From positions 1,116,001-1,180,000 of the forward strand of contig BSYQ01000011.1 of NCBI GenBank assembly GCA_030272585.1: 64,000 nt of DNA, read 5' to 3'. Below are positions 29,196 to 53,274 of the stretch, piece after piece; position 1 is the stretch's first letter; each line of letters starts with the position of its first letter. The DNA comes from Bryopsis sp. KO-2023. Taxonomy: Eukaryota; Chlorophyta; Ulvophyceae; Bryopsidales; Bryopsidaceae. The notes beneath the pieces are model-generated. The model made no database searches, was not told the origin of the DNA, and saw only the letters and a list, made by a program, of their open reading frames with translations. Made by a program: the position numbers and the translations under genes.

Positions 29196-29223
29196 GGACT
29201 CTTTTTCTTGTTCGGATCTAGTC

Positions 29224-29260
29224 AGGCCCGCCCGAAGTCCCCTTTCGACGGGCCTTTTTA
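29224..29260 (-). promoter_or_regulatory. Stem-loop just after the LTR-4 protease stop, candidate recoding signal
   Basis: The protease frame stops at 29258-29260 (TAA, minus). Three bases on, AGGCCCG (29249-29255, minus sense) can pair with CGGGCCT (29224-29230), a perfect GC-rich 7-bp stem whose 18-nt loop can fold further (CGAA/TTCG). The RT frame is open across the stop in the -1 phase. Stop-proximal stem-loops stimulate frameshifting or read-through in many LTR elements, so I read this as the Gag-Pol recoding site (inference). Confidence 0.5.
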
Positions 29261-29875
29261 GTTTGATACCTCTCGGTCATTGAACTTGACCACCCCTTCG
29301 TGAGCAAAGGTTGCAACCTTGTAATTGCTCGGCAACTGCACTGGTAAGTCGTTCCAGTTCCCTATCTGCACGCGGAGATACTGCCCGCGATAATTAAGTC
29401 CGGCATGGATGGCGATACTGCTCCCAGTTGGCACTACTGGCTTCAACTCGATTTCCTTGGAAGCCTTGATAGGGATCCACACGGTTGACAACGAGTGAGG
29501 TCGAAGGACGAGATTTCGCCCCAGCGGCACTGAATAGTAGTTCTCGGCAACGTTGATTATCTTCAAGTGACGCTTGGCAGAAGTGAGATCCAGGCTTTCT
29601 CCTTCCACTGGTTCTCTTTCTGGAAGAACCACTTCTTCTGGCAACCGTGTTACCATGCACTGCAGCGTTTTTCCGGATCCGATACTGATCCTCTTCCTCC
29701 GTACATCAATAACCGCGTTCAAGGAGTTGAGTATCGGCATTCCAACCAATAACTCATAGCCGGGCTCCTTCATCACATAAAAATCTGCAGAAACCTTCTT
29801 CCCCTCGGTGCCTATCTTGATGGAAGAAATGCTGCCTTCGGTTTCCACAGTCCTGCCATCAGCAGTTTTTATCTT
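29258..29875 (-). pseudogene. LTR-4 protease region, cut by LTR-6
   Basis: C-terminal part of the retropepsin-like region (EPGYELLVGMPILNSLNAVIDV, with the ILG-like LVGMP core) and a following domain (VPLGRNLVLRPHSLSTVWIPI). It ends at the LTR-6 insertion (TSD GCCGGG 29876-29881 and 42612-42617). The catalytic DTGA half is on the other side of LTR-6. Confidence 0.8.
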
Positions 29876-29881
29876 GCCGGG

Positions 29882-30427
29882 TGTAACCCCAAACCACGTC
29901 GCCTCCACCGATTTCGTCACATTGGCCAAGGCCAGAGTGCTATCGGGTAGAGGAGGGGTAGTTAGGACAGTCCAGCCACAGTCTGGAAGTAGCAGTCCAG
30001 CTGCGGAAATGGCTAGGTTGGACGGTCCTAGGGGTAGACTAAGGGAAGGGATTGAGGGAGGTTAGGAAGATCAGCTAGGTTTGATAGGTTAGGTAGTCCC
30101 CATCAGTAGGTGGGATCCTAGGTGATCAGTGGGACTAGGGTGAGTCAGGCGGCAGCCTATTTAATGGCTGATCTTAGGTTATTGGACATTCTGGGTGGGG
30201 CTTTTGTGTTTATTCGGGTTTGGACCCTTTATTGATTGTTGTAAGAAAGCTTGTGTGAAGAGTCCTGAGTAAGGTGCCTTGCAAAGGCCGTGTGATCAAG
30301 TACAAGAGGGGCTGTCCCCACTTCCGCCGTTCCCGTTCTGCAGAAACGCCATCACAACCGTTAAGTACGGCTGCAGGGGTGACCCCAGCGGTCAAGGGTA
30401 CCCTATTTGTTGGTTTCGGAGCCAGGG
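29882..30427 (+). repeat. LTR-6 5' LTR, TATA-like box and PBS
   Basis: 529 bp from TGTAACCCC to ACCCTATTTGT, then PBS TGGTTTCGGAGCCAGG from 30411. A TATA-like TATTTAA is at 30158-30164, so transcription would start near 30190 (inference). After the ATG that overlaps this box (30164) no further ATG occurs on this strand until 32579. Confidence 0.92.
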
Positions 30428-30442
30428 TGCGCACACTTTTGA

Positions 30443-32578: not shown

Positions 32579-35356
32579 ATGGCCCACCCCAGAGGACCTC
32601 CAAACAGGCTGATCAACAGTCAGTTAACCGCCTTCACTGGGGCAGAGAAGGAAGATGTGGCCACCTGGATACGGTCATACGAGATTCTCGCCACAGGCTC
32701 AGGGTGGAGTGTACCACCAGCGGTGCCGGACCATGAGGATCAGAGAATTGAGAGACTCGTCCTGTATACGACGGGGAAAGCGCGATCATGGGTGGACAAT
32801 TGGACGGCCAGACACCCTACACATGTGGGAGGGCTGCCGAACCCAGAAAGGACATGGCAGGAGTTACAAATGGGCATGTTGGCAAGGTTTGGAGTGGCGC
32901 CAGCGACGTTGGTGGCCCGTATCTTGGAACGGAAACAAAAGAATGACGAAACTGTGGGAGAATACGCTTCGGCACTCTCCCAGATGCAGCAACAACTCAA
33001 TGCGAGTCGAGCCCCAGGCAGTCCCGCCGTGGCCGACGAACTTCTACTGCAATTGTTTAAGAACGGAGTGCGGGAGGATCTTGCCCCCATCCTGCTGGGT
33101 TTTACAGGAGATACCCTGGATGAAGCAGTGGCAAGAGCCAGACAGATCGAAGAGAGACAAGTGCGGCCGGGGCCAAAGCGAAAGACAACGATCAACACAC
33201 TGGAGGAACTGCAGGACCAAGCAGTGATGGAGCCAGTCCTGGCGGAAGTAAATATTATGGATCAGCGGGTGAACGAACAAATCGAGAATTTGAGGAAGGA
33301 GGTGCGCGAACACCAAACCACCACGGACTCGCGACTCAGAGGAGTGGAGCAGCATGTGAGAACCTCTGGGCAGCAGTTTGGCGAACTCAAAAGTATGATC
33401 TCCACTCTATCAGGAATGGTGGCGGATGTGAGACAGCCTAATGTGCCAGAGCCAGGAGGAGGGAACTATGGAAACACTGGGGGTACCGGAGCAAACCAAG
33501 TGCCAATCAATGGAGGCAGAGGGCAAGGGGCCTACAGAGGCAATGGCTGGGGAAATGGAGGAGGCAGAGGACGGGGAACTCGGAACAATGGCAATGGAGG
33601 AAGAGGCTGGGGAGGAGGGCGTTATGATGTGAACAAAGTCAGATGTTGGCACTGCTCGCGCCTTGGCCATTATGCCAGCCAGTGTCCTGAACATTTAAAC
33701 TTCTTCCAGGCGGAAATGGGGGACCACCTGGTGATGGACTTTGAGCAAACGGACCCTGGGGCAACCACCACAGAAGGACCCGAGGAGGTTCTGGCACCAA
33801 TCTGGTACTCTGAAATGGATATTGACCACGGGGGCTTGGACAGGGACCAGGGAGGCAGTGGAGGAACCCCCATGGACACGAGCCCAATACCTTCGGAACC
33901 TCGAGCAGATGCTGGGGAGGAAGTTGTGATGGAGGAACCAAAGGAGGAACCAGAACCCCCACAGCAGGAGGAGAAGACAAAGTCTGTGCCTGAACCAGAA
34001 GGTGTGCCGAAGCCACAAGATGAGCCACAAGGATCGAGACCAGTTATGTTACCACCGATGTTCCCACCACCCATGCGGCCACCGTCCCCACGGAATACCA
34101 TGACCAAGAAAAAGAAAATGGGGAAAAAGACGGCGGGAGAGCCAAAGGAGAAGAAAATGTTTACCGCGACAGAAGCCAAAAAGTTTGTGGAGGGCCTGAT
34201 GACGGAGGTTCCAGTGGCGAGTCTGTGCCAGCACCACCCAGAGTTGATCGATGCATGGTTGAAGGCACTGAGGGTGCCCATGGCTAAAGTACCTGCAATC
34301 ACTACTGTGGAGGGAGTGGGCAAGCCCAGCCCATATGCAGTCACTACCGCCACAGCTAAGATCATGGAGACCAAGGTACCAGGGGCCATCATTGATACGG
34401 GGGCGAGTGCTTGTGTGATATCGGCCCAACTCCTAGCACGGACAGGGTTGACCCACCTGATGGAGGCACCGAAGGGGAGGTACAGGGATTGCAATGGCGA
34501 GACTAGGCAAGCTCTGGGGTACATCCCTGCCCTGCCCATCGCCCTTGGACAATGCAAACAGATCGTACCGTGCCATGTAGTGGAGAACGAACATCTATCC
34601 CTGATCATTGGGACCCCGTGGTTGGTGGATACCGGTACAGAGATCCACTTTGGTTTCAAGCGGCTCACTCCGTGTGTGGCAGGACGGCGAGTAGGTCACG
34701 TACCCATCGAGTTCCTTCACACAACGACGCCTGAGAGTGCTGCAGTCGTCGCAGTTTACCAAACCCTCCGATCGATCGAAGAAACGAGCGCCGCCCCAGA
34801 ACCGCCAGCAGCCCCCACTGGAAAGCAGCCACAGCAGGATTCAATGACGAGCCAAACGCCACCAGGGGAACGCCGACCAGATGGGTTCATCCAGCCCTAC
34901 CTCTACGTTCCTCAACCCCCTCCTCTGTGGATCACCAAGCGCCAGAAGGCAGTGCTGCAGGAGTGCTGCGCTATTCGGCGGGGAAAGGGGATGAGTGAGG
35001 CGGCGGCCACACATCTGTATCACCAAGAGGCAGAAATACTGGACACCAGGGGGAGGCACCACGGAGGGACAAAGAGGGAGTTCAAAAAGATCCACGACGA
35101 AAGGTTGAGATGCGAGGGAGAACCGAGAAAAAGGGATGCTATCACAAGGGAGTATTTCCGAAGGTGCGACGCTGTGACGAGCGCACAGAGGGAGGAGTCG
35201 GAGGAGATGTTGGGGCACTTCCGCAGGGAGGCCCAGAGGTGGAGGCCAGTGGAGGGTGGCGAGACTGGAGGGGGGACCTCCACAGCAGCCGCAGCTGGCG
35301 GGGAGGGGAGGAGTGAGCCACCAAGGGTGGTGAGCTACGACTCCTCGGATTTTTAA
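32579..35356 (+). CDS. gag: LTR-6 Gag-protease (from first ATG)
   Basis: The first ATG of the predicted transcript (GTGCCATGG, strong Kozak context) starts MAHPRGPPNRL. Capsid-type Gag follows (LTAFTGAEKEDVATWIRSYE, about 32625 onward; ERTWQELQMGMLARFG), then a heptad-like region (MDQRVNEQIENLRKEVREH), a Gly/Arg/Asn-rich RNA-binding-like stretch (about 33460-33630), a CCHC knuckle CWHCSRLGHYASQC (33644-33685), a linker with a Pro/Glu-rich part and a Lys cluster (TKKKKMGKK), and aspartic protease with IDTGASACVIS (GAT at 34394). The C-terminus (about 34900-35340) is charged. Pol follows in the -1 frame; a T run precedes the stop and a short GC-rich inverted repeat follows, consistent with frameshifting used by the family. 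Confidence 0.92.
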   Translation: MAHPRGPPNRLINSQLTAFTGAEKEDVATWIRSYEILATGSGWSVPPAVPDHEDQRIERLVLYTTGKARSWVDNWTARHPTHVGGLPNPERTWQELQMGMLARFGVAPATLVARILERKQKNDETVGEYASALSQMQQQLNASRAPGSPAVADELLLQLFKNGVREDLAPILLGFTGDTLDEAVARARQIEERQVRPGPKRKTTINTLEELQDQAVMEPVLAEVNIMDQRVNEQIENLRKEVREHQTTTDSRLRGVEQHVRTSGQQFGELKSMISTLSGMVADVRQPNVPEPGGGNYGNTGGTGANQVPINGGRGQGAYRGNGWGNGGGRGRGTRNNGNGGRGWGGGRYDVNKVRCWHCSRLGHYASQCPEHLNFFQAEMGDHLVMDFEQTDPGATTTEGPEEVLAPIWYSEMDIDHGGLDRDQGGSGGTPMDTSPIPSEPRADAGEEVVMEEPKEEPEPPQQEEKTKSVPEPEGVPKPQDEPQGSRPVMLPPMFPPPMRPPSPRNTMTKKKKMGKKTAGEPKEKKMFTATEAKKFVEGLMTEVPVASLCQHHPELIDAWLKALRVPMAKVPAITTVEGVGKPSPYAVTTATAKIMETKVPGAIIDTGASACVISAQLLARTGLTHLMEAPKGRYRDCNGETRQALGYIPALPIALGQCKQIVPCHVVENEHLSLIIGTPWLVDTGTEIHFGFKRLTPCVAGRRVGHVPIEFLHTTTPESAAVVAVYQTLRSIEETSAAPEPPAAPTGKQPQQDSMTSQTPPGERRPDGFIQPYLYVPQPPPLWITKRQKAVLQECCAIRRGKGMSEAAATHLYHQEAEILDTRGRHHGGTKREFKKIHDERLRCEGEPRKRDAITREYFRRCDAVTSAQREESEEMLGHFRREAQRWRPVEGGETGGGTSTAAAAGGEGRSEPPRVVSYDSSDF

Positions 35357-35529
35357 GTGGGCCGGCCACCGACGTCCTTCTTCGGCGACACCTGAAGGAG
35401 TGGCGGAGGTGGTTCGGTCCCACAAAGGGGAATAAAGGGAAAAGGGGAAGAGGGCGGCGTGGCAAGCGTGCGGGTAAACGAGAACAATGGCGTCGAGCAG
35501 GCAGGAGGATCAAGGAGCAGGAAGCGAGA

Positions 35530-37368
35530 ATGCAACGCCAAACGGAAGAAGTAGAAAGGGCCAGGAGTCTGTGGCCGGACTCATGGGCCATGCAATGCTT
35601 AAACCATAGCAGAACAGTGGAGGCAGAAATCCTTATGAGGGAGGGAATGGGAGAAGAAAAAGAAAAAAAGGGAAAAGAAAATTCAAGGGAAAGGAAAGCC
35701 AAAGAAACAGAAAAAGAAGAGGAAAGAAAAGAAAAAGGAGAAAGGAAAGAAAGGTTTGGGTTGAGGGAAATGGGACAGGCAGCAGTTCAGCTGCAGGAAA
35801 ATCAGATTTGGGCAGGGGTGGTTCCCCTTGGGACTTCTGATGTAGAAAATAAAACGTTTGCCACAGAAAAGGAAAGGGAAGAGAAAAAGGTGTCACTTAG
35901 AGAAAAACTGGAAGAACTGAAAATTAGTCCCCATCTTACCCCCCACCAAAGAAAAGAGCTGCTGGAGCTTCTGCAGCAGTACCCCGATGCCTGTGCTTGG
36001 TCCTCGGATCAAGTCGGGCAAACCAACATATTATACCACGAGATCCCCACCGGAGATCATCCCCCCATCAGGCAGAATCCCTACCGGTTCAGTTTTGCGG
36101 AGAACCAGGTAGTCAAATCGGAGGTGGCGAGGATGCTCCTGGATGGAGTGGTGCGGAAGTCAAAGTCCCCGTGGGCCTCACCGATCGTCTTGGTTCCAAA
36201 GCCAGATGGGTCGGTGCGGTTCTGTGTTGATTACCGCAAGCTCAACAAGGTGACCACCCGAGATAGCTTTCCTCTCCCGAGGATAGAGGATGCGATCAAC
36301 CAGTTCTCGGAGGCCAAGTTCTTCACCGCTTTGGATTTGAGATCAGGGTATTGGCAGGTCAGGATGAGCACTGCCTCCGCGGAGAAAACGGCCTTCATCA
36401 CACAGGAGGGGCTGTATGAGTTCGTGGTGATGCCCTTCGGGCTCAGTAACGCCCCAGCGACATTCCAAAGGATGATGAACGAGGTACTGGGACCTATGCT
36501 GTGGAAGGGGGTGATCGTGTATTTGGATGATATCATCATCTATGCGGAGACTTGGGAAAAGCATCAGGAGATCTTGGCAGAGGTGCTGCAGCGGCTGAAG
36601 GAGGCCAACCTGAGGATCAGCCCGAGGAAATCGGACTTCGGGTTTGAGGAGCTACTCTACTTGGGCCACATCGTGGGAAAAGGGGAAATCAAGATGAATC
36701 CGAAGAAGGTAGCCACAGTGGAGCTGCAGGAGCCACCGGTGGATGTGTCTACTCTGAGGTCCTTCCTTGGCCTTACTTCTTACTACAGGAGATTTGTGCG
36801 CGACTATGCAAGGATCGCTGCACCTCTGACGGAGTTGTTGAAGAAGGATGTGCCATTTGAATGGAGGGAACGACAACAACAAGCATTTGAGAGGCTGAAG
36901 AAAAGCATAACCGATCAACCAGTCCTGGCTCCACCACAGCCACACCTACCATACACTCTGCAGACAGACTGGAGCAGCCAGGCTGTGGGGGCAGTACTCT
37001 GCCAGAAGGATGAGCAAGGGAGAGAGCATGTGGTAGCCTATGCCAGCAAAAGACTCAACCCAGCGGAGAAGAACTATTCGGTAGTGGAGGGGGAGTGCCT
37101 GGCAGTGGTATGGGCTTGCACCCTATTCAGGCCATACATCTATGGCACAGAATTTGTGCTGCAGACAGACCAGCGGGCATTACAGTGGTTGATGACAGGT
37201 ACTAAACTGACGGGAAAACTGATGAGGTGGGCACTCCGCCTACAGGAGTTTGATTTCAGGATTGAGTTCCGCGCTGGAAAAAGCAATGCGAATGCGGATG
37301 CACTGACCAGGCTTCCAGTTCCACTGGATCATCCGATAGTCAGTGGATCCACAGCACTTCGTCCATAA
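35530..37368 (+). CDS. pol: LTR-6 reverse transcriptase-RNase H
   Basis: 612 codons from the first ATG (35530); the frame is open back to the end of Gag-PR, so it may be made as a Gag-Pol fusion. A Glu/Lys-rich coiled-coil N-terminus is followed by RT with VPKPDGSVRFCVDYRKLN, FTALDLRSGYWQV, YLDDIIIYAE (about 36520-36545), then RNase H (LQTDWSSQAVG, VVEGECLAVVWA, NADALTRLP). It ends at ...STALRP, exactly as in LTR-5 and LTR-7; integrase is in the next ORF. Confidence 0.93.
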   Translation: MQRQTEEVERARSLWPDSWAMQCLNHSRTVEAEILMREGMGEEKEKKGKENSRERKAKETEKEEERKEKGERKERFGLREMGQAAVQLQENQIWAGVVPLGTSDVENKTFATEKEREEKKVSLREKLEELKISPHLTPHQRKELLELLQQYPDACAWSSDQVGQTNILYHEIPTGDHPPIRQNPYRFSFAENQVVKSEVARMLLDGVVRKSKSPWASPIVLVPKPDGSVRFCVDYRKLNKVTTRDSFPLPRIEDAINQFSEAKFFTALDLRSGYWQVRMSTASAEKTAFITQEGLYEFVVMPFGLSNAPATFQRMMNEVLGPMLWKGVIVYLDDIIIYAETWEKHQEILAEVLQRLKEANLRISPRKSDFGFEELLYLGHIVGKGEIKMNPKKVATVELQEPPVDVSTLRSFLGLTSYYRRFVRDYARIAAPLTELLKKDVPFEWRERQQQAFERLKKSITDQPVLAPPQPHLPYTLQTDWSSQAVGAVLCQKDEQGREHVVAYASKRLNPAEKNYSVVEGECLAVVWACTLFRPYIYGTEFVLQTDQRALQWLMTGTKLTGKLMRWALRLQEFDFRIEFRAGKSNANADALTRLPVPLDHPIVSGSTALRP

Positions 37369-37527
37369 GGATCTTCCGGGGATCTCAAGATCATGGCTGG
37401 AAAAAGAGGAACCATTGTTGGTCCAATGGGGGTACTTCTAGACTGAAGGCAAGGCCACACGAACCCCGAAAAAGTAGCGTGGAACACCGTGACCGTTCGG
37501 ACTTCGTGATTTGCCACAGTTGCTGCC

Positions 37528-40500
37528 GTGATCAAAGGAGGAGGTCAAAGGAGAATGGATCCATGGGCGGATGCGGAACTGATGGAATTCTTGAAAACAA
37601 CGGCATTACCCGCTGAGAAACAAGCAAAAGCGAGGGTGCGAAAAAGGGGTCAGAGATATCGATGGGTGGGAGGAGATCTACACCCACTCAAGTGCTTGAG
37701 TAAACAAGGAGAATGGCTAGAGGTGCCAAAAGAGGAGCAAAGGCCAACTGTGGTCCGAAAAGTCCACAGAGAAAATGCGCACATCGGCGGCAGAGGATTG
37801 TGCCAGAAAGTGCAGCAGAGATACTGGTGGCCATATATAAGGAAAGAGGTAGAACAAGTGTGGCAGACGTGCCACAGCTGCAGAAGAAGTCAGAAAGCGC
37901 CTAAGGAACGACACCCATTAAGGCAGCATATACCGTTAAGAGCCTGGGAGAGACTGGGTATGGACTTGATCACCCTGCCCACCACCGGAACGGGAGAAAA
38001 ATATGTGATAGTCATGGTAGACTACTTCACCAAGTGGACGATCGCCGGGGCATTAACGAGTAAGAGGAGTTCTGCGGTGGCGGCGTGGCTGAAGGCCTCG
38101 GTGTTCCATCCATATGGACCGCCCGCCTCCATCATCACAGACAACGGGAGTGAATTCGAAGGAGAGGTGGCAGAACTTCTACAGCAGTGGGGAGTCCAGT
38201 TGAGGAAAGGACGCCCATACCACCCGGAGACCAATGGGCTGGTCGAAAGAATGAACCGGGAGATACAACAACTATTGCGGAGGGAGTGTGGCGGCGGGAT
38301 CACGCCCCAATGGCCGGAGAAACTGCAGGAGGTGATTTATGCTATCAACACCAGGGAACACACCTCCACCGGACTCAGCCCCGCCAAGGCATTGTTTTTC
38401 CGGGAGTTTTCCACCAAAACCAAACGAAATGAACGCTTAGCAGAATTGCGAGGGGAGTTACGCCGGGCAGATGCAGTGGAGCTGCAGCGCCAGGTCACCC
38501 TGAGGTTTATGAATGAGGAGAGGAAAGCTCAGGAGGGGAGTCTTGCCAGAGCCTTGCAGAAAGCAAGGGTCAAACAGCAGCTGGGGCACCTCTGGGAGAC
38601 GATCAGGCGGGGTAAAGCTCCAGCAGAACTGCAAGTAGGGGACATGGTGATGTTGTGCTCAACTCGGTTCCCCTACCACCCCAATGAGATGGAATTTAAT
38701 CAGGGGCCATGGATGGTCCAGGAATTACGTGGGGATTTGGTAAAGGTGGGTCAGACCCCAAGGGATGCATGGACTGTGGACAGGGTACAGTGTCGCCTCA
38801 TTGAGAGGACGGACGTGGAGGAGTCTCGTGGCGGAAGTGCAGAAAACCCCAACAGCGGCGGCGAATTGTTAGACGAATTTGCACTTTTCGAGAGCCCAGC
38901 GACCATGTTCCGAATCGTATGTTTCCTGGCCATTATATGTGGCGTGTTGAGTAGTGGCGGAGGCGGAGTAGGGCCAATCGGTGGCGCACGTGAGGGTAGC
39001 GGCGATCAGCCAGAGCGAGGGGGCAGTGGATCATCGCAAAGGGGTGGCGGAAATCAACCAGGGCAAGGAAATGACGACACACCCATGGCTGAATCCGGCA
39101 GCCTCGATACAGCAGATTTGGAGGCGGAATATGGATTGCAGGAGGAGGAGACAGTGGAGGAGTTGGTCAGCGAGCCCATGGAGGAGATCGCCTTTCCAGC
39201 AGCCGGGCCATCCCAACCTCCACCAGTAGAACTCCCGGCCACCTTCCGAAATCTGCCGGTAGAGCAGCAAATTGACGCCGTGGCGGCATACTTTGCGGCG
39301 ATCCTTGCGAGCCATATGACCCAGCCGGAAACCCAGAACGTGGCCACCCAAACCGACGGAAAAGAGCAACGGGATCAGGTGTCGCAGGCTACCTGCGACA
39401 TGGTGCCGTGGAAGCAATGGGAGCAACAACGGAGGCGGATGCAGAAGATGGCGGACCTTTTGGATCGCCAGAAGAATCGGATTGCGGAACTGACGGGAAA
39501 GGAAAAAGAACCGCTACACCCCCGAAGCAGCCACCCACGAAAGAAAACGGTGCGAAGCCTCAAGGTTGGGGACATTGGGGAAGGAGGAAAGCCACCTCCT
39601 CAGCTGGGTCCAGAAGACTTGGAAGAAGCTACAGCAACATTAACAGGAGAACAGCCATTTCATCAGCCTGGACAAGGGGGGCTGGAAGGATCAACAGCAG
39701 CAACAGCAGCCACAGGAGAGGGGCAGCATGAGGAAACCACAGTGGGGGAAGGATTGGTTGGGGGTGAATCAGGGGCTGGGGAGAAAGTGGGGGAGGAGCA
39801 GCCAGGAACACCAGAGGATGAACCCCCAGCTCCAGCTGATGTGATCCCAGGAAGCCCACCACATCCACAGCCACTGTCGGCTCAGGAATGGGCGGAGGTG
39901 CAGAGGGAGGAAAGAGATCGATCGTTGGCGGGACATCAGCCGCTGCCTGGGATGCACTACCGGAGAGGATGGGAGGAGACGGTGTCACAGCCTCGTGTGG
40001 AGGAACCTGATCCAGTTCCATTTGCCCACCAAGCGGAGCAAGTAGGATCCCAGGATCCACCAGCTGAACCCCCAACGACGGAGGAAGTGCCTCCAGCCTC
40101 CCAACTCGTCTTGCTGCCACCAGGGCCAATCAGACCACCAGCTCCACCCCTGGCGGGACCTCGGCCACCACGCCCCTTCCAAATGTTCCAGAATGTCCAA
40201 GCCCCATTTGCGTTCGGAGCAGGAACTCCCACAGGAACTACCCCGGGATTAAGCCAAAGCGGGACTCCAGCATCGAAGGGAGGAGCGCCAAGGAAGGGCC
40301 CAACCACTAGACTCGCCTCAGGAAAAGGGAAGCTCAAGAAGGTCGTCTTGGATTTTTCAGGAACGGATACGGAGACTGGCGAGGACGAAGGGCCCCCAGA
40401 CGGAACAGCACCGGGTGATGGAAAGGGACAGCACGGCCAGAGCAGCGGCGGCGGCACCCCAGGGATGGGTACGCGTTGCAGCCGTTGTTCAAAACCGCCC

Positions 40501-41019
40501 GGCTCCAACGCGTACATCCCAACCGCCTGTAAGTTTGCCAATACACCCGGGCATCACAGACACTGCTCGAGGGATCGCTTTGGGAAATCCTGGAAAGCTT
40601 GTGCGAAGGATGTGTTGGCCATCCTCGTGGCCTTGCGGCGCCCCGACCTCTTCTGCCGCGGACGCGAACTCACGCTGGGGGACATCCCGGCGGCGGACCT
40701 TTCATGGATCCCGGAGTATCGCCCTGGCATCACCGCCGACGAGGTTTTCCAAAATCGCTGCTGGCGATGCGAAGCAGAAGCCCGAAACTTCCCGACGACG
40801 GCATACTGGCGCACGCTGACGGCGGAGATGTGGGGGCGATACCCCGAGCTCCGTCGGCCGTTCCCTGACGAGATCCCCCTGGAGAGAGGCAACGCAGCCA
40901 AGCGGCCCCGAGAAGACGAAGGTCCAGACGATCCAGCAGCGGGAGGAGAGCCGCCGGAGCACTGTCGCGGAGGTCAGGGAGGACCGCCACCACCACCACC
41001 GCCGCCGCCGACAGCCTAA
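37528..41019 (+). CDS. LTR-6 integrase fused to a long accessory region with RING-like domain
   Basis: 1163 codons (first ATG 37555, MDPWADAEL). Integrase: HHCC zinc domain (AHIGGRGLC ... CHSCRR, about 37775-37890), catalytic Asp/Asp/Glu (GMDLITL about 37966, IITDNGSEFE about 38137, NGLVERMNRE about 38235) and a GPW module (about 38700). Then an ATG-preceded hydrophobic segment MFRIVCFLAIICGVL (38905-38950), Gly/Ser/Glu- and Pro-rich linkers, a helical segment (WEQQRRRMQKMADLLDRQ), and at 40477-40782 a Cys/His domain: C-x2-C-x13-C ... H-x2-C ... C ... C-x2-C. A nuclear-signal-like KRPRED and poly-Pro end follow. The same domain type is a separate ORF in LTR-1 and LTR-2. A possible 3' splice site (TTTGCCACAG) lies at about 37510-37519. 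Confidence 0.88.
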   Translation: MIKGGGQRRMDPWADAELMEFLKTTALPAEKQAKARVRKRGQRYRWVGGDLHPLKCLSKQGEWLEVPKEEQRPTVVRKVHRENAHIGGRGLCQKVQQRYWWPYIRKEVEQVWQTCHSCRRSQKAPKERHPLRQHIPLRAWERLGMDLITLPTTGTGEKYVIVMVDYFTKWTIAGALTSKRSSAVAAWLKASVFHPYGPPASIITDNGSEFEGEVAELLQQWGVQLRKGRPYHPETNGLVERMNREIQQLLRRECGGGITPQWPEKLQEVIYAINTREHTSTGLSPAKALFFREFSTKTKRNERLAELRGELRRADAVELQRQVTLRFMNEERKAQEGSLARALQKARVKQQLGHLWETIRRGKAPAELQVGDMVMLCSTRFPYHPNEMEFNQGPWMVQELRGDLVKVGQTPRDAWTVDRVQCRLIERTDVEESRGGSAENPNSGGELLDEFALFESPATMFRIVCFLAIICGVLSSGGGGVGPIGGAREGSGDQPERGGSGSSQRGGGNQPGQGNDDTPMAESGSLDTADLEAEYGLQEEETVEELVSEPMEEIAFPAAGPSQPPPVELPATFRNLPVEQQIDAVAAYFAAILASHMTQPETQNVATQTDGKEQRDQVSQATCDMVPWKQWEQQRRRMQKMADLLDRQKNRIAELTGKEKEPLHPRSSHPRKKTVRSLKVGDIGEGGKPPPQLGPEDLEEATATLTGEQPFHQPGQGGLEGSTAATAATGEGQHEETTVGEGLVGGESGAGEKVGEEQPGTPEDEPPAPADVIPGSPPHPQPLSAQEWAEVQREERDRSLAGHQPLPGMHYRRGWEETVSQPRVEEPDPVPFAHQAEQVGSQDPPAEPPTTEEVPPASQLVLLPPGPIRPPAPPLAGPRPPRPFQMFQNVQAPFAFGAGTPTGTTPGLSQSGTPASKGGAPRKGPTTRLASGKGKLKKVVLDFSGTDTETGEDEGPPDGTAPGDGKGQHGQSSGGGTPGMGTRCSRCSKPPGSNAYIPTACKFANTPGHHRHCSRDRFGKSWKACAKDVLAILVALRRPDLFCRGRELTLGDIPAADLSWIPEYRPGITADEVFQNRCWRCEAEARNFPTTAYWRTLTAEMWGRYPELRRPFPDEIPLERGNAAKRPREDEGPDDPAAGGEPPEHCRGGQGGPPPPPPPPPTA

Positions 41020-41801
41020 AAAGGGGGAAGGTGAAAAAAAAAAAGGGAAGGAAAATGGGGGGGGGGGGGGCGACTGTTTGTTTTTGTTTTATTGTTTTAT
41101 TTGTTTTTGTTTTATTGGTTTTCATGAGAATGGCTATGGAGACAGCCTTCTCAAAGAAAAGTAGTAGCTGAACTGGGTTGGACCAGTAAGAATGGAAAAG
41201 AAAAGGAAGTGAGAGAGAGAGAGAGTAAGAGTCCAGAGTTCAGGGCTCTCTTTTTGATGACTTTTTGTTTTTGCTTTTATTGTTTTTGTTTTTGTTTTAT
41301 TGGTTTTCATGAGAATGGCTATAGAGACAGCCTTCTCAAAGAAAAGTAGTAGCTGAACTGGATTGGACCAGTAAGAATGGAAAAGAAAAGGAAGTGAGGA
41401 AGAGAGAGTAAGAGTTCCGAGTTCAGGGTTCTCTCTTAAATCTTTTTGATACATGATTTCAAGTTGCTATGAGGGTTAGAGAACAGACTGTCTGCTGCTG
41501 AAGTGGGCAGGCAGTAAAACACTGTGGCAGGAGTGGGTGTCTGATGGGTTAGATATCTTTTTGGGGGAAGGCATGAAAAAGGGGGGGGGGGGGGGGGGAA
41601 ATAAACAAACAGAAACCTCTGGTTATTGGACCTGAAAAAGAAAAAAAAAAAAAGAGAACAAGCCTACTGGTTGAGAAGGCAGGTTGCTCAGTATTTCTAG
41701 GGATGAAGTGAACAAGCTGACAGAACAGCTGTGGATTGTGTTGTGCTTGTGTTATCAAGGTTAACAGACATTTTTCCTATTGTGTAGAAAGTAATAATCA
41801 G

Positions 41802-41838
<37 letters not shown>

Positions 41839-42066
41839 TTTTGGATCCCAACATACTGACCCTTAGCATTTGTTCTATAGTACTGGGGACACTGCATCTG
41901 TGGACTTAGTGGTTGAATAGGCAGTTAGGTCTTTCTATTCACCACTTCTCCAACAGTTCTGACCCCAGCTATCTTGAAAATGGAAGTCTAGACACAGAAA
42001 CAGTTCAGAAAAGAGGGGAGGGGATGTTAAAACTTTTGGGGACAAAAGTTCAGGGAGGAGGGGAGT
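41020..42066 (+). other. LTR-6 3' region with duplicated segment and homopolymer tracts
   Basis: No gene. Holds G14 (41057-41070), two copies of a 185-bp segment (about 41083-41450, each with CATGAGAATGGCTAT and AGTAGTAGCTGAACTG), G18 (41581-41598), A32 (41802-41833) and the polypurine tract GGGAGGAGGGGAG just before the LTR (42053-42065). LTR-7 has one copy of the 185-bp segment. Confidence 0.8.
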
Positions 42067-42611
42067 GGTTACAGCTGTAACCCCAAACCACGTCGCCTCC
42101 ACCGATTTCGTCACATTGGCCAAGGCCAGAGTGCTATCGGGTAGAGGAGGGGTAGTTAGGACAGTCCAGCCACAGTCTGGAAGTAGCAGTCCAGCTGCGG
42201 AAATGGCTAGGTTGGACGGTCCTAGGGGTAGACTAAGGGAAGGGATTGAGGGAGGTTAGGAAGATCAGCTAGGTTTGATAGGTTAGGTAGTCCCCATCAG
42301 TAGGTGGGATCCTAGGTGATCAGTGGGACTAGGGTGAGTCAGGCGGCAGCCTATTTAATGGCTGATCTTAGGTTATTGGACATTCTGGGTGGGGCTTTTG
42401 TGTTTATTCGGGTTTGGACCCTTTATTGATTGTTGTAAGAAAGCTTGTGTGAAGAGTCCTGAGTAAGGTGCCTTGCAAAGGCCGTGTGATCAAGTACAAG
42501 AGGGGCTGTCCCCACTTCCGCCGTTCCCGTTCTGCAGAAACGCCATCACAACCGTTAAGTACGGCTGCAGGGGTGACCCCAGCGGTCAAGGGTACCCTAT
42601 TTGTGGTTACA
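42067..42611 (+). repeat. LTR-6 3' LTR with palindrome and 7-base terminal extension
   Basis: U3 begins at the polypurine tract with the perfect palindrome GGTTACAGCTGTAACC (42067-42082). 42076-42604 equals the 5' LTR. The last 7 bases, GGTTACA (42605-42611), are followed by the TSD GCCGGG and do not occur at the 5' LTR/PBS junction, where ATTTGT runs straight into TGGTTTCGG. They equal the first 7 bases of the palindrome. Confidence 0.93.
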
Positions 42612-42617
42612 GCCGGG

Positions 42618-43964
42618 TCCTCCCTCTTGTGTCGGCGAGACTCCCAATCTCTTTGCCAATCCGGAAGACATCACATTCACCGCGGCTCCCGTGTCGATGA
42701 TTGCAAATTCCTCCACGCTCTCGGCAGCAGTGGATACAAGGGACATTTTGGTGGTAAGCAGTCCTGCTGATCTCCCCACGGTCAATACTTCTTTGTAAGT
42801 TTTGCTTGTCGTGATTCCTCCACATCCGGTGGATTTGGGAATCTTCTTTTGTTTGGGTCCTGTAGCAGTTTTGCTCTGGCGGTACTGCGTTCTTTCAGAC
42901 TTCCTCCACTTCTTCGTTGGCACTTTCTCCACAGGTGCAACCGAGATAGTCCCGACATAGTTTGTCTCGGGTTGGTAGAGGTCTTCTTCTTCCAATCCCT
43001 CAAAATCATTGTGATCTTCGAAATAGGGTTCCTCGAATTGGACCGTTCTTGTGGCCATTCCACGATATGGTGTACCACTTCTCCTGTATCCTCCAGTGTT
43101 TCTGGAACCACTGTTGCCTGCATTTCCGCTGCTTCCGTTTCTGGCCAACCAGCTCAAAAATCCACGAAATCTTCTGTCTCTCTTGCTCAATTGAGTGATG
43201 AAAAACTTGAGCGAGCCGAATGGTACCTCTTTTAGCTTCTGCTGCCAATCAGTTGGCAGCATATCTCCCTGTCTCACAGGTGTTTCCGTTTCTGCTGTTG
43301 CAGTACTGCCCATCGCTTCTCCTACGGCTCCAATGTCCATCGCGTCCCCTTGGAGTTTCGCTGTTGTATCTTCGAGGCGAAACACGTTGATGATCCATTC
43401 CTTTGCGTTTGCGATAGCGTCTACGTATGTGGCGGTCACCATTGCTGCCGTTCCGACTCTGCAATCCTTTGGAAGTAGTTTGAAGAAAATTTCTTTTATT
43501 TTCGCATCATCCACATCCTGTTCCACTGCCATTGCTTCTTGGCGAAACTGCTCGATCCACTGCAGCCACGTTTGCCCCTTTTTCTTGACACATTTGCGAA
43601 GGACTGCTTCCTTTTCTGAAGGACTCTCCAAGATAGCTCTTTCCGTTACGAGAAATCCTGCCACGTTCATCTTTAACGCATCAATATTTCCAGCCACTGC
43701 TGCTGGAGAAGCTGCGGGCCTCCCGTGTGATCCTGGAGGATACGCTGCGTCGAAGTCGGCCATCAGAACATTGTTAACTTCGTACAGTATTGCCAAAATA
43801 TTCTCTCCGGGTCCTTCTGGGACATAGTGGTCCACCACTGATGCGCAGAACTGCTGATATGTCGCGTAGATCCTTGAGCGCTGAAACGCATACCGGAAAT
43901 TTCTGGAAGTGATAGTCTCATATCGACATATCTTATCCAGAGATGGTGATGGTATCCCCGCCAT
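42618..43964 (-). pseudogene. gag: LTR-4 Gag and protease N-terminal part, cut by LTR-6
   Basis: The frame from a first ATG at 43964 (MAGIPSPSLDKICRYE, context GAAGAATGG). A helical Gag region (YVPEGPGENILAILYEVNN, QTWLQWIEQFRQEAM) is followed by a Gly/Ser/Asn-rich stretch and an aspartic protease start with IIDTGAAVNVMS. I see no CCHC zinc knuckle, unlike the other elements. The reading frame is open further up through the PBS, but without ATG. The element's protease is interrupted at the LTR-6 TSD (42612-42617). Confidence 0.82.
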
Positions 43965-44025
43965 TCTTCCTTGTAGTCTTTGGAGTAGTCTCCCACGAAA
44001 ACTTAAGTTCTCCAGAACGCTGTAA

Positions 44026-44528
44026 CCTGGCTCCGAAACCAATCCTTTGGGTGCGCCTTGCAGGCGATGGGTCAGGTGTTTCTTAGCAGGAAACGCTGCA
44101 AATCGAAAACCTTATACCCTTTATCGTTTCAACTAGGAGGGCTCGGTGAGAGGTCGGAATACAAGAGCTTTGGACGACCAAAAGCGTGGAGACTGAGGCA
44201 CAAGTCGAACATGAACAAAAAGTGGTTACAAGGAAGAATAAAAACCCCCTTCTCTTATAGGGTAAAAAGAGCCACTTCTTAGCTACTCATTTGTACAAAG
44301 TAGCTACCCCGTAGCTACCCATTTCTAATACCCTAGCTTCACCCAACTACCCTTTATTAACTATTACCAACCCTTACAAATTGGAGGTACTCAGTGAGAA
44401 ATACTGAGTACTGTTTCCTAAGTTTCACTGTTTCTGATAACATAAGCAGGACTTCTGAACGTCCTTCCCAGTACTGCAAGAGGAGCTGGACCCTTCTCCT
44501 GCCACAGACCCTTAAAATGCAGGTCACA
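44026..44528 (-). repeat. LTR-4 5' LTR and PBS
   Basis: 487 bp (44042-44528), beginning TGTGACCTGCATT and ending CCAAAGGAT in element sense, then PBS TGGTTTCGGAGCCAGG (44026-44041, minus). A TATA-like CTATAAGAG (element sense) is at about 44253-44261. It looks identical to 18375-18861. Confidence 0.9.
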
Positions 44529-46180: not shown

Positions 46181-46726
46181 TGTAACCACAAATAGGGTAA
46201 CCTTGACCGCTGGGGTCACCCCTGCAGCCGTACTTAACGGTGGTGATGGCGTTTCTGCAGAACGGGAACGGCGGAAGTGGGGACAGCCCCTCTTGAAGTT
46301 GATCACACGGCCTTTGCAAGGCACCTTACTCAGGACTCTTCACACAAGCTTTCTTACAACAATCAATAAAGGTCCAAACTCGAATAAACACAAAAGCCTC
46401 ACCCAGAATATCCAATAACCTAAGATCAGCCATTAAATAGGCTGCCGCCTGACTCACCCTAGTCCCACTGATCACCTAGGATCCCACCTACTGATGGGGA
46501 CTACCTAACCTATCAAGCCTAGCTGATCTTCCTAACCTCCCTCAATCCCTTCCCTTAGTCTCTACCCCTAGGACCGTCCAACCTCGTCATTTCCGCAGCT
46601 GGACTGCTACTTCCAGACTGTGGCTGGACTGTCCTAACTACCCCTCCTCTACCCGATAGCACTCTGGCCTTGACCAGTGTGACGAAAACGGTGGAGGCGA
46701 CGTGGTTTGGGGTTACAGCTGTAACC
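46181..46726 (-). repeat. LTR-7 3' LTR with palindrome and 7-base extension
   Basis: The outer end TGTAACC (46181-46187; GGTTACA in element sense) is extra relative to the 5' LTR. 46188-46717 equals 58278-58807. The palindrome GGTTACAGCTGTAACC is at 46711-46726, followed by plus-strand ACTCCCCTCCTCCC (purine tract complement). Confidence 0.92.
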
Positions 46727-47584
46727 ACTCCCCTCCTCCCTGAACTTTTGTCCCCAAAAGTTTTAACATCCCCTCCCCTCTTTTCTGAACTGTTTCTGTG
46801 TCTAGACTTCCATTTTCAAGATAACTGGGGTCAGAACTGTTGGAGAAGTGGTGAATAGAAAGACCTAACTGCCTATTCAACCACTAAGTCCACAGATGCA
46901 GTGTCCCCAGTACTATAGAACAAGTGCTAAGTGTCAGTATGTTGGGATCCAAAATAAAAGTTTTTTTTTTTTTTTTTCAATTATCACTTTCTGCACAACA
47001 GGAAAAATGTCTGTTAACCTTGATAACACAAGCACAACACAATCCACAGCTGTTCTGTCAGCTTGTTCACTTCATCCCTAGAAATACTGAGCAACCTGCC
47101 TTCTCAACCAGTAGGCTTGTTCTCTTTTTTTTTTTTTTTTTCTCAGGTCCAATAACCAGAGGTTTCTGTTTGTTTATTCCCCCCCCCCCCCCCTTTTTTT
47201 CATGCCTTCCCCCAAAAAGATACCTAACCCATCAGACACCCACTCCTGCCACAGTGTTTTACTGCCTGCCCACTTCAGCAGCAGACAGTCTGATCTCTAA
47301 CCCTCATAGCAACTTGAAATCATGTATCAAAAAGATTTAAGAAAGAACCCTGACCTCTGAACTCTTATTCCCTCTTCCTCACTTCCTTTTCTTTTCCATT
47401 CTTACTGGTCCAATCCAGTTCAGCTACTACTTTTCTTTGAGAAGGCTGTCTCTATAGCCATTCTCATGAAAACCAATAAAACAAAAACAAATAAAAACAA
47501 TAAAAACAAAAACAAACAGTCACCCCTCCCCCATTTTCCTTCCTTTTCCTTTTTTTTTTTTTTCCTTTTCACCTTCCCCCCTTT
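46727..47584 (-). other. LTR-7 3' region
   Basis: No gene. Contains the purine tract next to the LTR, a T run (about 46963-46977), a second T run (about 47127-47141), C15 (about 47179-47193) and one copy of the 185-bp segment duplicated in LTR-6 (about 47380-47520). Confidence 0.75.
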
Positions 47585-50500
47585 TTAGGCTGTCGGCGGC
47601 GGCGGTGGTGGTGGTGGTGGCGGTCCTCCCTGACCTCCGCGACAGTGCTCCGGCGGCTCTCCTCCTGCTGCTGGATCGTCTGGACCTTCGTCTTCTCGGG
47701 GCCGCTTGGTTGCGCTGCCTCTCTCCAGGGGGATCTCGTCAGGGAACGGCCGACGGAGCTCGGGGTATCGCCCCCACATCTCCGCCGTCAGCGTGCGCCA
47801 GTATGCCGTCGTTGGGAAGTTTCTGGCTTCCGCTTCGCATCGCCAGCAGCGATTTTGGAAGACCTCGTCGGCGGTGATGCCAGGGCGATACTCCGGGATC
47901 CATGAAAGGTCCGCCGCCGGGATGTCCCCCAGCGTGAGTTCGCGTCCGCGGCAGAAGAGGTCGGGGCGCCGCAAGGCCACGAGGATGGCCAACACATCCT
48001 TGGCACACGCTTTCCAGGATTTTCCAAAGCGGTCTCGCGAGCAGTGTCGGTGGTGCCCGGGTGTGTTAGCAAACTTACAGGCGGTTGGGATGTACGCGTT
48101 GGAGCCGGGCGGTTTTGAACAACGGCTGCAACGCGTACCCATCCCTGGAGTGCCGCCGCCGCTGCTCTGGCCGTGCTGTCCCTTTCCATCACCCGGTGCT
48201 GTTCCGTCTGGGGGCCCTTCGTCCTCGCCAGTCTCCGTATCCGTTCCTGAAAAATCCATGACGATCTTCTTGAGCTTCCCTTTTCCTGAGGCGAGTCTAG
48301 TGGTTGGGCCCTTCCTTGGCGCTCCTCCCTTCGATGCTGGAGTCCCGCTTTGGCTTAATCCCGGGGTAGTTCCTGTGGGAGTTCCTGCTCCGAACGCGAA
48401 TGGGGCTTGGACATTCTGGAACATCTGGAAGGGGCGTGGTGGCCGAGGTCCCGCCATGGGTGGAGCTGGTGGTCTGATTGGCCCTGGTGGCAGCAAGACG
48501 AGTTGGGAGGCTGGAGGCACTTCCTCCGTCGTTGGGAGTTCAGCTGGTGGATCCTGGGGTCCTGCTTGCTCCGCTTGGTGGGCAAACGGAACTGGATCAG
48601 GTTCCTCCACACGAGGCTGTGACACCCTCTCCTCCCATCCTCTCCGGTAATGCATCCCAGGCAGCGGCTGGTGTCCCGCCAACGACCGATCTCTTTCCTC
48701 CCTCTGCAACTCCGCCCATTCCTGAGCCGACAGTGGCTGTGGATGTGGTGGGCTTCCTGGGATCACATCAGCTGGAGCTGGGAGTTCATCTTCTGGTGTT
48801 GTTGGCTGCTCCTCCCCCACTTTCTCCCCAGTCCCTGCTTCACTCCCAACCAATCCTGAGCCTTCCCCCACTGTGGTTTCCTCATGCTGCCCTCCTCCTG
48901 TGGCTGCTGTTGCTGCTGTAGCTGCTGTTGCTGCTGTTGATCCCTCCAGACCTCCTTGTCCAGGCTGATAGAGTGGCTGTTCTCCTGTTAATGTTGCTGT
49001 AGCTTCCTCCAAGTCTTCTGGACCCAACTGAGGAGGTGGCTTTCCTCCTTCCCCAATGTCCCCAGCCTTGAGGTTTTTCACCGTTTTCTTTCGTGGGTGG
49101 CTGCTTCGGGGGTGTAGCGATCCTTTTTCCTTCCCCGTCAGTTCCGCGATTCGATCCTTCTGGCGATCCAAGAGGTCCGCCATCTTCTTCATCCGCCTCC
49201 GTTGTTGCTCCCATTGATTCCACGGCACCATGTCGCAGGTAGCCTGCGACCCCTGATCCCGCTGCTCTTCTTCGTCGGTTTGGGTGGCAACATTCTGGGT
49301 TTCCGGCTGGGTCATATGGCTCGCAAGGATCGCCGCAAAGTACGCGGCCACTGCATCAATTTGCAGCTCCACCGGCAGATTTCGGAAGGTGGCCGGGAGT
49401 TCTACTGGTGGAGGTTGTGATGGCCCGGCTGCTGGTAAGGCGATCTCCACCATGGGCTCGCTGACCAACTCCTCCACTGTCTCCTCCTCCTGCAATCCAT
49501 ATTCCGCCTCCAAATCTGCTGTATCGAGGCTGCCGGATTCAGCCATGGGTGTGTCGTCATTTCCTTGCCCTGGTTGATTTCCGCCACCCCCTTGCGATGA
49601 CCCACTGCCCCCTCGCTCTGGCTGATCGCCGCCACCCTCACGTGCGCCACCGATTGGCCCTACTCCGCCTCCGCCACTACTCAACACGCCGCATATGATG
49701 GCCAGGAAACATACGAATCGGAACATGGTCGCTGGGCTCTCGAAAAGTGCAAATTCGTCTAACAATTCGCCGCCGCTGTCGGGTTTTTCTGCACTTCCGC
49801 CACGAGACTCCTCCACGTCCGTCCTCTCAATGAGGCGACACTGTACCCTGTCCACAGTCCATGCATCCCTTGGGGTCTGACCCACCTTTACCAAATCCCC
49901 ACGTAATTCCTGGACCATCCATGGCCCCTGATTGAATTCCATCTCCTTGGGGTGGTAGGGGAACCGAGTTGAGCACAACATCACCATGTCCCCTACTTTC
50001 AGTTCTGCTGGAGCTTTACCCCGCCTGATCGTCTCCCAGAGGTGCCCTAGCTGCTGTTTGACCCTTGCTTTCTGCAAGGCTCTGGCAATACTCCCCTCCT
50101 GAGCTTTCCTCTCCTCATTCATAAACCTCAGGGTGACCTGGCGCTGCAGCTCCACTGCATCTGCCCGGCGTAACTCCCCTCGCAATTCTGCTAAGCGTTC
50201 ATTTCGTTTGGTTTTGGTGGAAAACTCCCGGAAAAACAATGCCTTGGCGGGGCTGAGTCCGGTGGAGGTGTGTTCCCTGGTGTTGATAGCATAAATCACC
50301 TCCTGCAGTTTCTCCGGCCATTGGGGCGTGATCCCGCCGCCACACTCCCTCCGCAATAGTTGTTGTATCTCCCGGTTCATTCTTTCGACCAGCCCATTGG
50401 TCTCCGGGTGGTATGGGCGTCCTTTCCTCAACTGGACTCCCCACTGCTGTAGAAGTTCTGCCACCTCTCCTTCGAATTCACTCCCGTTGTCTGTGATGAT

Positions 50501-51103
50501 GGAGGCGGGCGGTCCATATGGATGGAACACCGAGGCCTTCAGCCACGCCGCCACCGCAGAACTCCTCTTACTCGTTAATGCCCCGGCGATCGTCCACTTG
50601 GTGAAGTAGTCTACCATGACTATCACATATTTTTCTCCCGTTCCGGTGGTGGGCAGGGTGATCAAGTCCATACCCAGTCTCTCCCAGGCTCTTAACGGTA
50701 TATGCTGCCTTAATGGGTGTCGTTCCTTAGGCGCTTTCTGACTTCTTCTGCAGCTGTGGCACGTCTGCCACACTTGTTCTACCTCTTTCCTTATATATGG
50801 CCACCAGTATCTCTGCTGCACTTTCTGGCACAATCCTCTGCCGCCGATGTGCGCATTTTCTCTGTGGACTTTTCGGACCACAGTTGGCCTTTGCTCCTCT
50901 TTTGGCACCTCTAGCCATTCTCCTTGTTTACTCAAGCACTTGAGTGGGTGTAGATCTCCTCCCACCCATCGATATCTCTGACCCCTTTTTCGCACCCTCG
51001 CTTTTGCTCGTTTCTCAGCGGGTAATGCCGTTGTTTTCAAGAATTCCATCAGTTCCGCATCCGCCCATGGATCCATTCTCCTTTGACCTCCTCCTTTGAT
51101 CAC
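47585..51103 (-). CDS. LTR-7 integrase fused to accessory region with RING-like domain
   Basis: 1172 codons, collinear with LTR-6 37528-41019: HHCC domain (AHIGGRGLC ... CHSCRR), Asp/Asp/Glu core (GMDLITL, IITDNGSEFE, NGLVERMNRE), hydrophobic MFRFVCFLAIICGVL, Gln/Glu-rich helix, and the Cys/His domain at 47837-48130 with every Cys and His kept (RCSRC ... HHRHC ... CWRC). Small in-frame length differences lie only in the low-complexity linkers (Ala/Thr run near 48900-48930), which suggests the ordered parts are constrained. Confidence 0.88.
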   Translation of the reverse strand: MIKGGGQRRMDPWADAELMEFLKTTALPAEKRAKARVRKRGQRYRWVGGDLHPLKCLSKQGEWLEVPKEEQRPTVVRKVHRENAHIGGRGLCQKVQQRYWWPYIRKEVEQVWQTCHSCRRSQKAPKERHPLRQHIPLRAWERLGMDLITLPTTGTGEKYVIVMVDYFTKWTIAGALTSKRSSAVAAWLKASVFHPYGPPASIITDNGSEFEGEVAELLQQWGVQLRKGRPYHPETNGLVERMNREIQQLLRRECGGGITPQWPEKLQEVIYAINTREHTSTGLSPAKALFFREFSTKTKRNERLAELRGELRRADAVELQRQVTLRFMNEERKAQEGSIARALQKARVKQQLGHLWETIRRGKAPAELKVGDMVMLCSTRFPYHPKEMEFNQGPWMVQELRGDLVKVGQTPRDAWTVDRVQCRLIERTDVEESRGGSAEKPDSGGELLDEFALFESPATMFRFVCFLAIICGVLSSGGGGVGPIGGAREGGGDQPERGGSGSSQGGGGNQPGQGNDDTPMAESGSLDTADLEAEYGLQEEETVEELVSEPMVEIALPAAGPSQPPPVELPATFRNLPVELQIDAVAAYFAAILASHMTQPETQNVATQTDEEEQRDQGSQATCDMVPWNQWEQQRRRMKKMADLLDRQKDRIAELTGKEKGSLHPRSSHPRKKTVKNLKAGDIGEGGKPPPQLGPEDLEEATATLTGEQPLYQPGQGGLEGSTAATAATAATAATGGGQHEETTVGEGSGLVGSEAGTGEKVGEEQPTTPEDELPAPADVIPGSPPHPQPLSAQEWAELQREERDRSLAGHQPLPGMHYRRGWEERVSQPRVEEPDPVPFAHQAEQAGPQDPPAELPTTEEVPPASQLVLLPPGPIRPPAPPMAGPRPPRPFQMFQNVQAPFAFGAGTPTGTTPGLSQSGTPASKGGAPRKGPTTRLASGKGKLKKIVMDFSGTDTETGEDEGPPDGTAPGDGKGQHGQSSGGGTPGMGTRCSRCSKPPGSNAYIPTACKFANTPGHHRHCSRDRFGKSWKACAKDVLAILVALRRPDLFCRGRELTLGDIPAADLSWIPEYRPGITADEVFQNRCWRCEAEARNFPTTAYWRTLTAEMWGRYPELRRPFPDEIPLERGSATKRPREDEGPDDPAAGGEPPEHCRGGQGGPPPPPPPPPPTA

Positions 51104-51262
51104 GGCAGCAACTGTGGCAAATCACGAAGTCCGAACGGTCACGGTGTTCCACGCTACTTTTTCGGGGTTCGTGTGGCCTTGCCTTCAGTCTAGAAGTACC
51201 CCCATTGGACCAACAATGGTTCCTCTTTTTCCAGCCATGATCTTGAGATCCCCGGAAGATCC

Positions 51263-53101: not shown

Positions 53102-53274
53102 TCTCGCTTCCTGCTCCTTGATCCTCCTGCCTGCTCGACGCCACTGTTCTCGTTTACCCGCACGCTTGCCACGCCGCCCTCTTCCCCTTTTCCCTTTATT
53201 CCCTTTTGTGGGACCGAACCACCTCCGCCACCCCTTCAGGTGTCGCCGAAGAAGGACGTCGGTGGCCGGCCCAC

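Follow-up and report, generated by a model that had tools for sequence, protein, structure and literature searches.

In the circles of IS elements, abutted inverted ends lying a few bases apart constitute the active donor. For reverse-transcribing elements, a model of integration via the joined LTR-LTR junction was put forward by Panganiban and Temin in 1984 (PMC11054761, PMC3148978). This circle model is described as having been dropped for retroviruses, partly since the extensions it called for were of 4 bases and those observed were of 2 (PMC11054761), and the linear form is given as the accepted retroviral precursor (PMC3148978, PMC11054761), which counts against a joined-end reading such as the one proposed below. 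According to later reports, the two strands of a palindromic 2-LTR junction are each cut after CA by foamy virus integrase, so that 5′ overhangs of 2 bases result (Delelis 2005, PMC1180852), the HIV-1 integrase tetramer cleaves its LTR-LTR palindrome in the manner of a restriction enzyme (Delelis 2007, PMC1905944), and 2-LTR circles are claimed to serve as a store from which integration can draw (Thierry 2015, PMC4372172). Among the open-licence papers listed in our literature search, in part the top of longer lists and mostly judged by their title and the start of their abstract, none dealt with joined-end integration of an LTR retrotransposon.

Here we analyse a 64,000-nt stretch of DNA from the green alga Bryopsis sp. 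KO-2023 (the window; C11:1116001-1180000 of the 91.09-Mb, 28-contig genome) together with related copies genome-wide. From integrated genomic DNA of this one genome, we propose, at a probability of about 80%, Ty3/gypsy-type elements to integrate from a joined U5-U3 end that is cut two bases apart within a palindrome.

Asymmetric elements in the window

The window holds several Ty3/gypsy-type elements, part of them nested. Four are asymmetric (A to D), with A and C sitting inside D. Every boundary of the four was read. In element A (29882-42611, plus strand, as are all its features), a left target site duplication (TSD) GCCGGG (29876-29881) precedes the 5′ LTR (29882..30410), which runs from TGTAACC to ATTTGT without a terminal GGTTACA and is abutted at the end of U5 by a putative primer-binding site (PBS), TGGTTTCGGAGCC (30411..30423; the assignment does not draw on a tRNA match). 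A domain search placed a reverse transcriptase (RT) and RNase H ORF of the Ty3/gypsy type at 35530..37368, and Pfam found integrase zinc-binding and core domains close to the start of the ORF at 37528..41019, in the translation of which a D...D...E arrangement is seen by eye. The boundary reading further indicates a polypurine tract (PPT), TCAGGGAGGAGGGGAGT (42050..42066), presumably acting as such, and a PPT-to-U3 stretch, GGTTACAGC (42067..42075), as the likely template of the outer 3′ end; together with the LTR start, this stretch forms the perfect palindrome GGTTACA-GC-TGTAACC (42067..42082). Up to the reach of the 5′ LTR, the 3′ LTR (42076..42604) shows 0 differences over 529 bases, and it is followed by the extra GGTTACA (42605..42611) and the right TSD GCCGGG (42612-42617).

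The other three elements lie on the minus strand. Element B belongs to A's family (46181..58807; extra GGTTACA 46187-46181, PPT flank 46726-46718, PBS 58277-58265, TSD CACGTA), element C to a second family (19934..28763; extra GGTTACA 19940-19934, PPT flank 20531-20523, PBS 28174-28162, TSD ATCGTC) and element D, the host of the A and C insertions, to a third (18368..44528; extra GGTTACA 18374-18368, PPT flank GGTTACAGC 18870-18862, TSD CTTAAG). The LTR pairs of A, B and D have 0 differences each, and the LTRs of C measure 589 and 582 bases.

Three boundaries recur in all four elements (4/4 each): U5, ending ATTTGT in A, B and C and AAAGGAT in D, runs directly into TGGTTTCGGAGCC; the inner boundary reads PPT, GGTTACAGC, LTR start; and at the outer 3′ end U5 is followed by GGTTACA and the target duplication. 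This confirms what the initial annotation had reported, namely that the outer 3′ end carries bases missing from the 5′ LTR, that U5 abuts the PBS, and that the additional bases match the flank on the PPT side of U3. Its description of the U5/U3 junction as palindromic holds for A, B and C, where the palindrome is perfect, but not fully for D, whose LTR starts with TGTGACC; because of this imperfect palindrome, D is the more informative element. The "two LTR families" of the same annotation become three, if D was the fourth element meant. Because the 6-bp duplications of A, B, C and D match in 6/6 positions, the extra bases are the element's own and not the target's. The 16-bp palindrome occurs three times in the window compared with 0 in 100 shuffles, by which a chance origin was rejected; genome-wide (91 Mb) it has 123 occurrences and its reversed pattern 0.

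Element A and an element of a divergent family (locus L109) carry gag, aspartic protease, RT and RNase H, followed by an H2C2 zinc finger and an rve integrase. They share with Ty3/gypsy elements (Metaviridae) this domain set, TG...CA outer ends, a PBS past U5, a PPT before U3 and, around the two, near-identical LTRs. They differ in that U5 lacks a terminal CA and that the outer 3′ end extends 7-11 bases beyond the 5′ LTR, these bases equalling the PPT flank; whereas textbook linear cDNA gives 5′ and 3′ LTRs ending at the same base, those of the asymmetric families end at different bases. DIRS/Ngaro-type elements have a tyrosine recombinase in place of the rve integrase and no target duplication; this identity was ruled out by the rve integrase and the 6-bp target duplications. 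Among the best 120 of 6372 RT relatives were amphibian, arthropod, fish and charophyte entries, and a scan of viral contigs confirmed no relative of the element RT.

Symmetric ends were found in two conventional elements that share this PBS. The one in the window (4606..12830, plus strand) has TGATAG...CTATCA at either end, reads CTATCA-AT-TGG where it meets the PBS and is flanked by the 5-bp TSD GAAAC; the other (L068) likewise has symmetric ends and a 5-bp duplication. Therefore, the asymmetry belongs to these families and not to the genome or the assembly. Target duplications are 6 bp long in the asymmetric elements checked as opposed to 5 bp in the two symmetric ones. A paralogous stretch with a single GAAAC (59560-59620) resembles the empty site of the conventional window element. 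As further observations on coding regions, 90-bp tandem repeats lie within the gag- and protease-coding first long ORF of A and B (31129-32148 and 56466-57575), the long C-terminal ORF part past the integrase of A (38900-41019) has no Pfam match, and neither has an ORF at 61418-62794, upstream of the PPT of the divergent family.

The asymmetry across genomic copies

A pattern search for U5 ends of family 1 (that of A and B) gave 61 matches, 60 of which could be classified (27 as outer ends, 33 as U5/PBS boundaries); the remaining one, L084, also meets a PBS. GGTTACA was present at 27/27 outer ends and at 0/33 U5/PBS boundaries, nor was it found at L084. Nineteen of the outer ends belong to pairs and three to solo LTRs with TSDs matching 6/6, one belongs to a pair matching 5/6, and four are partnerless in the set. 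For family-2 types, 100 of 105 U5-end matches were sampled, with GGTTACA at 43/43 outer ends compared with 0/52 U5/PBS boundaries; by eye, four of the five remaining matches look like chance matches and one is a rearranged locus, L080. There, the U5 end at C9:4152106, the sole exception, is followed by neither a PBS nor the extra bases. A comparison of boundaries over genomic copies had been named by the initial annotation as one check of its proposal. Neither of the outcomes that it gave as refuting, GGTTACA at the U5/PBS boundary of most other copies or outer 3′ ends lacking it, is seen in the copies examined, and the proposal is supported.

Both U5-end patterns demanded an intact U5 end. 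A further pattern, tolerating absence of the last 8 U5 bases, returned 14 outer ends (10 of them already in the family 1 list); all 14 carry GGTTACA and retain the U5 end, in one case with a substituted base. All three patterns skip sites at which the final pattern letter is G, so these sets are samples and not a census. Among the 33 PBS-type LTRs of family 1, two (L012, L032) belong to tandem elements with one common LTR, having the PPT and GGTTACAGC on their left. Likewise, the LTR at L074:8043-8340 has a PPT on the left and a PBS on the right; since it runs into a PBS, its family has a single outer end, that of L075.

Template of the additional bases

Families differing in PPT flank or U3 start were compared for the bases added at their outer ends. 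In family (i), the PPT flank GGTCACAGC lies before a U3 starting TGTAACC, and the outer ends read GGTCACA (4/4), which is missing from all 3 PBS boundaries. Family (ii), that of D, has the flank GGTTACAGC before TGTGACC and carries GGTTACA at 3/3 outer ends (D included) and in L078, the bases being absent at 5 PBS boundaries. The PPT flank ATGGGTTACAGC of family (iii) corresponds to an outer end ATGGGTTACA (2/2; L076, L077), and in the one case of family (iv), L075, the flank A-GGTTACAGC corresponds to A-GGTTACA past a U5 ending TTTTGGG. The added bases thus appear to copy the PPT-to-U3 stretch and not the complement of U3, with the reservation that agreement of flank and outer end at the level of families is partly due to common descent. 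Three loci assigned to another family (L066, L067, L083) were set aside, as another element interrupts and leaves no usable LTR pair, and so were L069, L070 and L071, which have no resolved LTR pair beside their PBS-like sites.

A divergent family (v) with 1.4-kb LTRs has 35 PPT copies in the genome, one of them in the window, where PPT flank and 3′ LTR start read CGTCACA-GC-TGTGACG (63335..63350, plus strand; the LTR extends beyond the window). At the PBS its 5′ LTR closes with GCGTTTTC, as read in a single case (L109); for the copy on C2, a PBS lying 10.9 kb further upstream had been considered but does not belong to its 5′ LTR. All 28 outer ends fetched read GCGTTTTC followed by GGAGCGTCACA or GGATCGTCACA (pattern GCGTTTTC|GGA[G/T]CGTCACA), an asymmetry of 11 bases, where 3/28 were found via the PPT and 25/28 via a pattern that already holds the first GG of the flank. 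The last pattern used for this family leaves out PBS and +1 joints through its final letter. The G/T variant of the flank equals that of the outer end in 11/11 paired elements (5 T, 6 G; Fisher p 0.002). The pairs of PPT and outer end were formed by proximity, at distances of about 1.4-1.5 kb and in one case of 3.5 kb, and part of the agreement is due to descent within subfamilies. Six PPT copies carry the T variant; one of these has no U5 match and stands outside the pairing.

Variation of the joint between insertions

Across the 70 outer ends of families 1 and 2, U5 meets the added bases directly in 52 cases, with an additional T in 14, an A in 2, and a C or a G in 1 each; the 4 further outer ends from the tolerant search comprise 3 direct joints and 1 with an additional G. 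No deletions at joints were seen in either set. Within elements, LTRs differ at 3 positions in total over 18 pairs, as compared with a median of 8 between elements (153 comparisons). The LTRs are therefore renewed in each cycle as is usual, which makes inheritance of the outer U5 end unlikely. Indeed, L047, with an additional A, has an LTR identical to those of L004 and L038, which have direct joints and lie at different sites. Joint types did not cluster on nearest neighbours (216/1000 shuffles were as high; 25 ends, low power). From one insertion to the next the joint has 0 or 1 added base, even among elements with identical LTRs, which indicates that it is made anew each time.

In a post hoc comparison, with families assigned from sampled copies, the additional T occurs at 14/58 ends where a T precedes the flank as opposed to 0/16 where a G does (p 0.03), which fits a one-base variation of the plus-strand start. 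Although an A precedes the flank in family (i), 2/4 of its ends have the additional T, so the T probably has a second source as well, for example a base retained from the primer. An uncut U5-GGTTACAGC-TGTAACC junction, which might be expected as a relic, was absent from the sites listed (61/61; the first 100 of 136; the first 100 of 105), which speaks against the joined-end reading. Separately, three outer ends (C5:2897014, C12:2194055, C8:4791695) continue with GCTG, like an uncut joint over four bases.

Proposed route of integration

Integrase would need a CA, which U5 does not supply at its end; the missing site would be kept upstream of U3, beside the PPT. Plus-strand synthesis would begin a few bases before U3 and give rise to a left cDNA end GGTTACAGC-U3 (in other families GGAGCGTCACAGC-U3, ATGGGTTACAGC-U3 or GGTCACAGC-U3), while the right cDNA end would stop at U5. 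With the left end set by the PPT and the right end stopping at U5, RNA and cDNA should carry no GGTTACA past U5. A precise joint of this right end with a left end, in the simplest case that of the same molecule, would yield U5-GGTTACA-GC-TGTAACC-U3. Integrase would then cut both strands of the palindrome or near-palindrome after CA, the two cuts lying two bases apart. Such cutting would leave 2-base GC 5′ overhangs, like those of ordinary processed ends; with loss of the central GC both proviral ends would result, and insertion would take place with a 6-bp target duplication. The two outer ends of an element would accordingly add up to a U5-U3 joint holding bases absent at the U5/PBS boundary. 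That cuts at CA and TG around the central GC of joined U5 and U3 would reproduce both outer ends was already a claim of the initial annotation, and it gains support from the tracking of the flank and from joints with 0 or 1 extra base.

The joint may be that of a circle, of a concatemer or of a polymerase jump between ends. The sequence itself displays the asymmetry, the internal stretch that it matches, the target duplications, the joints with 0 or 1 extra base and the near-identical LTR pairs; from these we infer the joint as a DNA molecule, its circular form and its cutting by integrase, while the plus-strand start position and tRNA priming at the PBS are inferences too. Family (i) accounts for 5 of the first 100 palindromes listed, yet its own GGTCACA stands at 4/4 of its outer ends; this speaks for joining in cis or inside a single particle. 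Circles of plant LTR elements made by non-homologous end joining (NHEJ) are reported to have small indels (PMC9324142); as the joints here show no deletions, a plain NHEJ circle is an imperfect fit. The plus-strand route of Ty3 is described as unusual, with repeated PPT priming (PMC5371799); repeated priming of this kind would still end the right side at U5.

At 7126-8621 of the rearranged locus L080 (C9:4143500-4153499), LTR pieces have two exact joints at GGTTACAGC, one to a U3 that breaks off after ~135 bases and one, in inverted orientation, to other DNA. In addition, an inverted LTR start is fused via GGTGACC, and a U5 ending exactly ATTTGT is followed by an 11-base match to inverted LTR sequence. 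The composite looks as if raw cDNA ends had been inserted without integrase and possibly lends fossil support to the ends postulated above.

Alternative explanations

Reverse transcriptases are capable of jumping end to end, and the ends could be joined by polymerisation instead of ligation: at the U5 end, RT would add 0-1 base and continue onto the other cDNA end, and a linear U5-GGTTACAGC... product would be trimmed after CA. The precision of the joints, their 0-1 extra base and the lack of observed deletions speak for this unlikely route, as do the additional A, C and G in families with a GAGT flank, which the PPT flank does not predict; however, both ends would have to lie side by side and the switch would be required at every successful insertion. 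The route stays within the joined-end idea, of which it is a variant. Far less probable is inheritance of the outer end, whereby a longer RNA or conversion would copy the parental end and the asymmetry would be fixed and old. All examined members of a family do have the same added bases, and agreement with the flank at family level could in principle reflect common descent. Yet the 3 differences in 18 LTR pairs against a median of 8 between elements, the differing extra base of elements with identical LTRs, and the absence of any observed grouping of extra bases among nearest neighbours (216/1000 shuffles as high, n=25, low power) stand against it.

The source of the added bases might also lie elsewhere than in the PPT flank. 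An alternative tRNA primer ending TGTAACCA could have been copied, in which case TGGTTACA would begin like a PBS, and joints with an additional T do read TTGGTTACA (14/70). The commonest joint (52/70), however, is one T short, and GGTCACA, ATGGGTTACA and GGAGCGTCACA in other families match their own PPT flanks, so that we regard a tRNA origin as highly improbable. In most families seen, GGTTACA equally complements the LTR start TGTAACC, as it would if U5 were extended by copying an inverted U3 start, through a hairpin or pairing of ends. Families (i) and (ii) combine flank and U3 in mismatches of opposite direction, GGTCACA occurring with a U3 of TGTAACC (4/4) and GGTTACA with TGTGACC (D, two more and L078); copying of an inverted U3 is therefore excluded for practical purposes. 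Integration from a joined U5-U3 end is well supported and is the reading that we prefer.

Discussion

The linear cDNA of HIV already has an integrase site at each end, whereas the right end of the elements described here appears to lack one. The two systems would be alike in having a joined palindrome cut by integrase, and HIV-1 circles are claimed to be able to feed integration (PMC1905944, PMC4372172). With foamy virus, the elements would share a junction cut like processed ends, which was proposed there to explain an apparent asymmetry of ends (PMC1180852). The foamy proviral sequence alone demands no joint, whereas here the outer 3′ end holds bases that the U5 end lacks and that only the other end would supply. 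Given the 2-base core in these elements, the 4-base objection to the circle model does not arise. The abutted ends would be a donor as in IS-element circles; the latter, in contrast, belong to DNA transposons that move without reverse transcription.

It is likely, in our view, that joining is obligatory in these families: with a linear right end devoid of an integrase site and a ready-made CA-GC-TG joint beside the PPT, the two-LTR joint would be the true donor, and the elements would represent a natural, genome-recorded case of integration from a circle junction. The LTR-LTR joint as donor was proposed in 1984, rejected for retroviruses and, as the cited reports have it, reopened by work on foamy virus and HIV integrases. 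In Bryopsis sp. KO-2023, the insertions themselves hold bases that are explained by a joined end and not by a plain linear one, and conventional elements with the same PBS are at hand in the same genome as controls. The system would thus allow the question of the joint as donor to be tested directly, and it illustrates how a retroelement could shift its integrase site from U5 to the flank of the polypurine tract.
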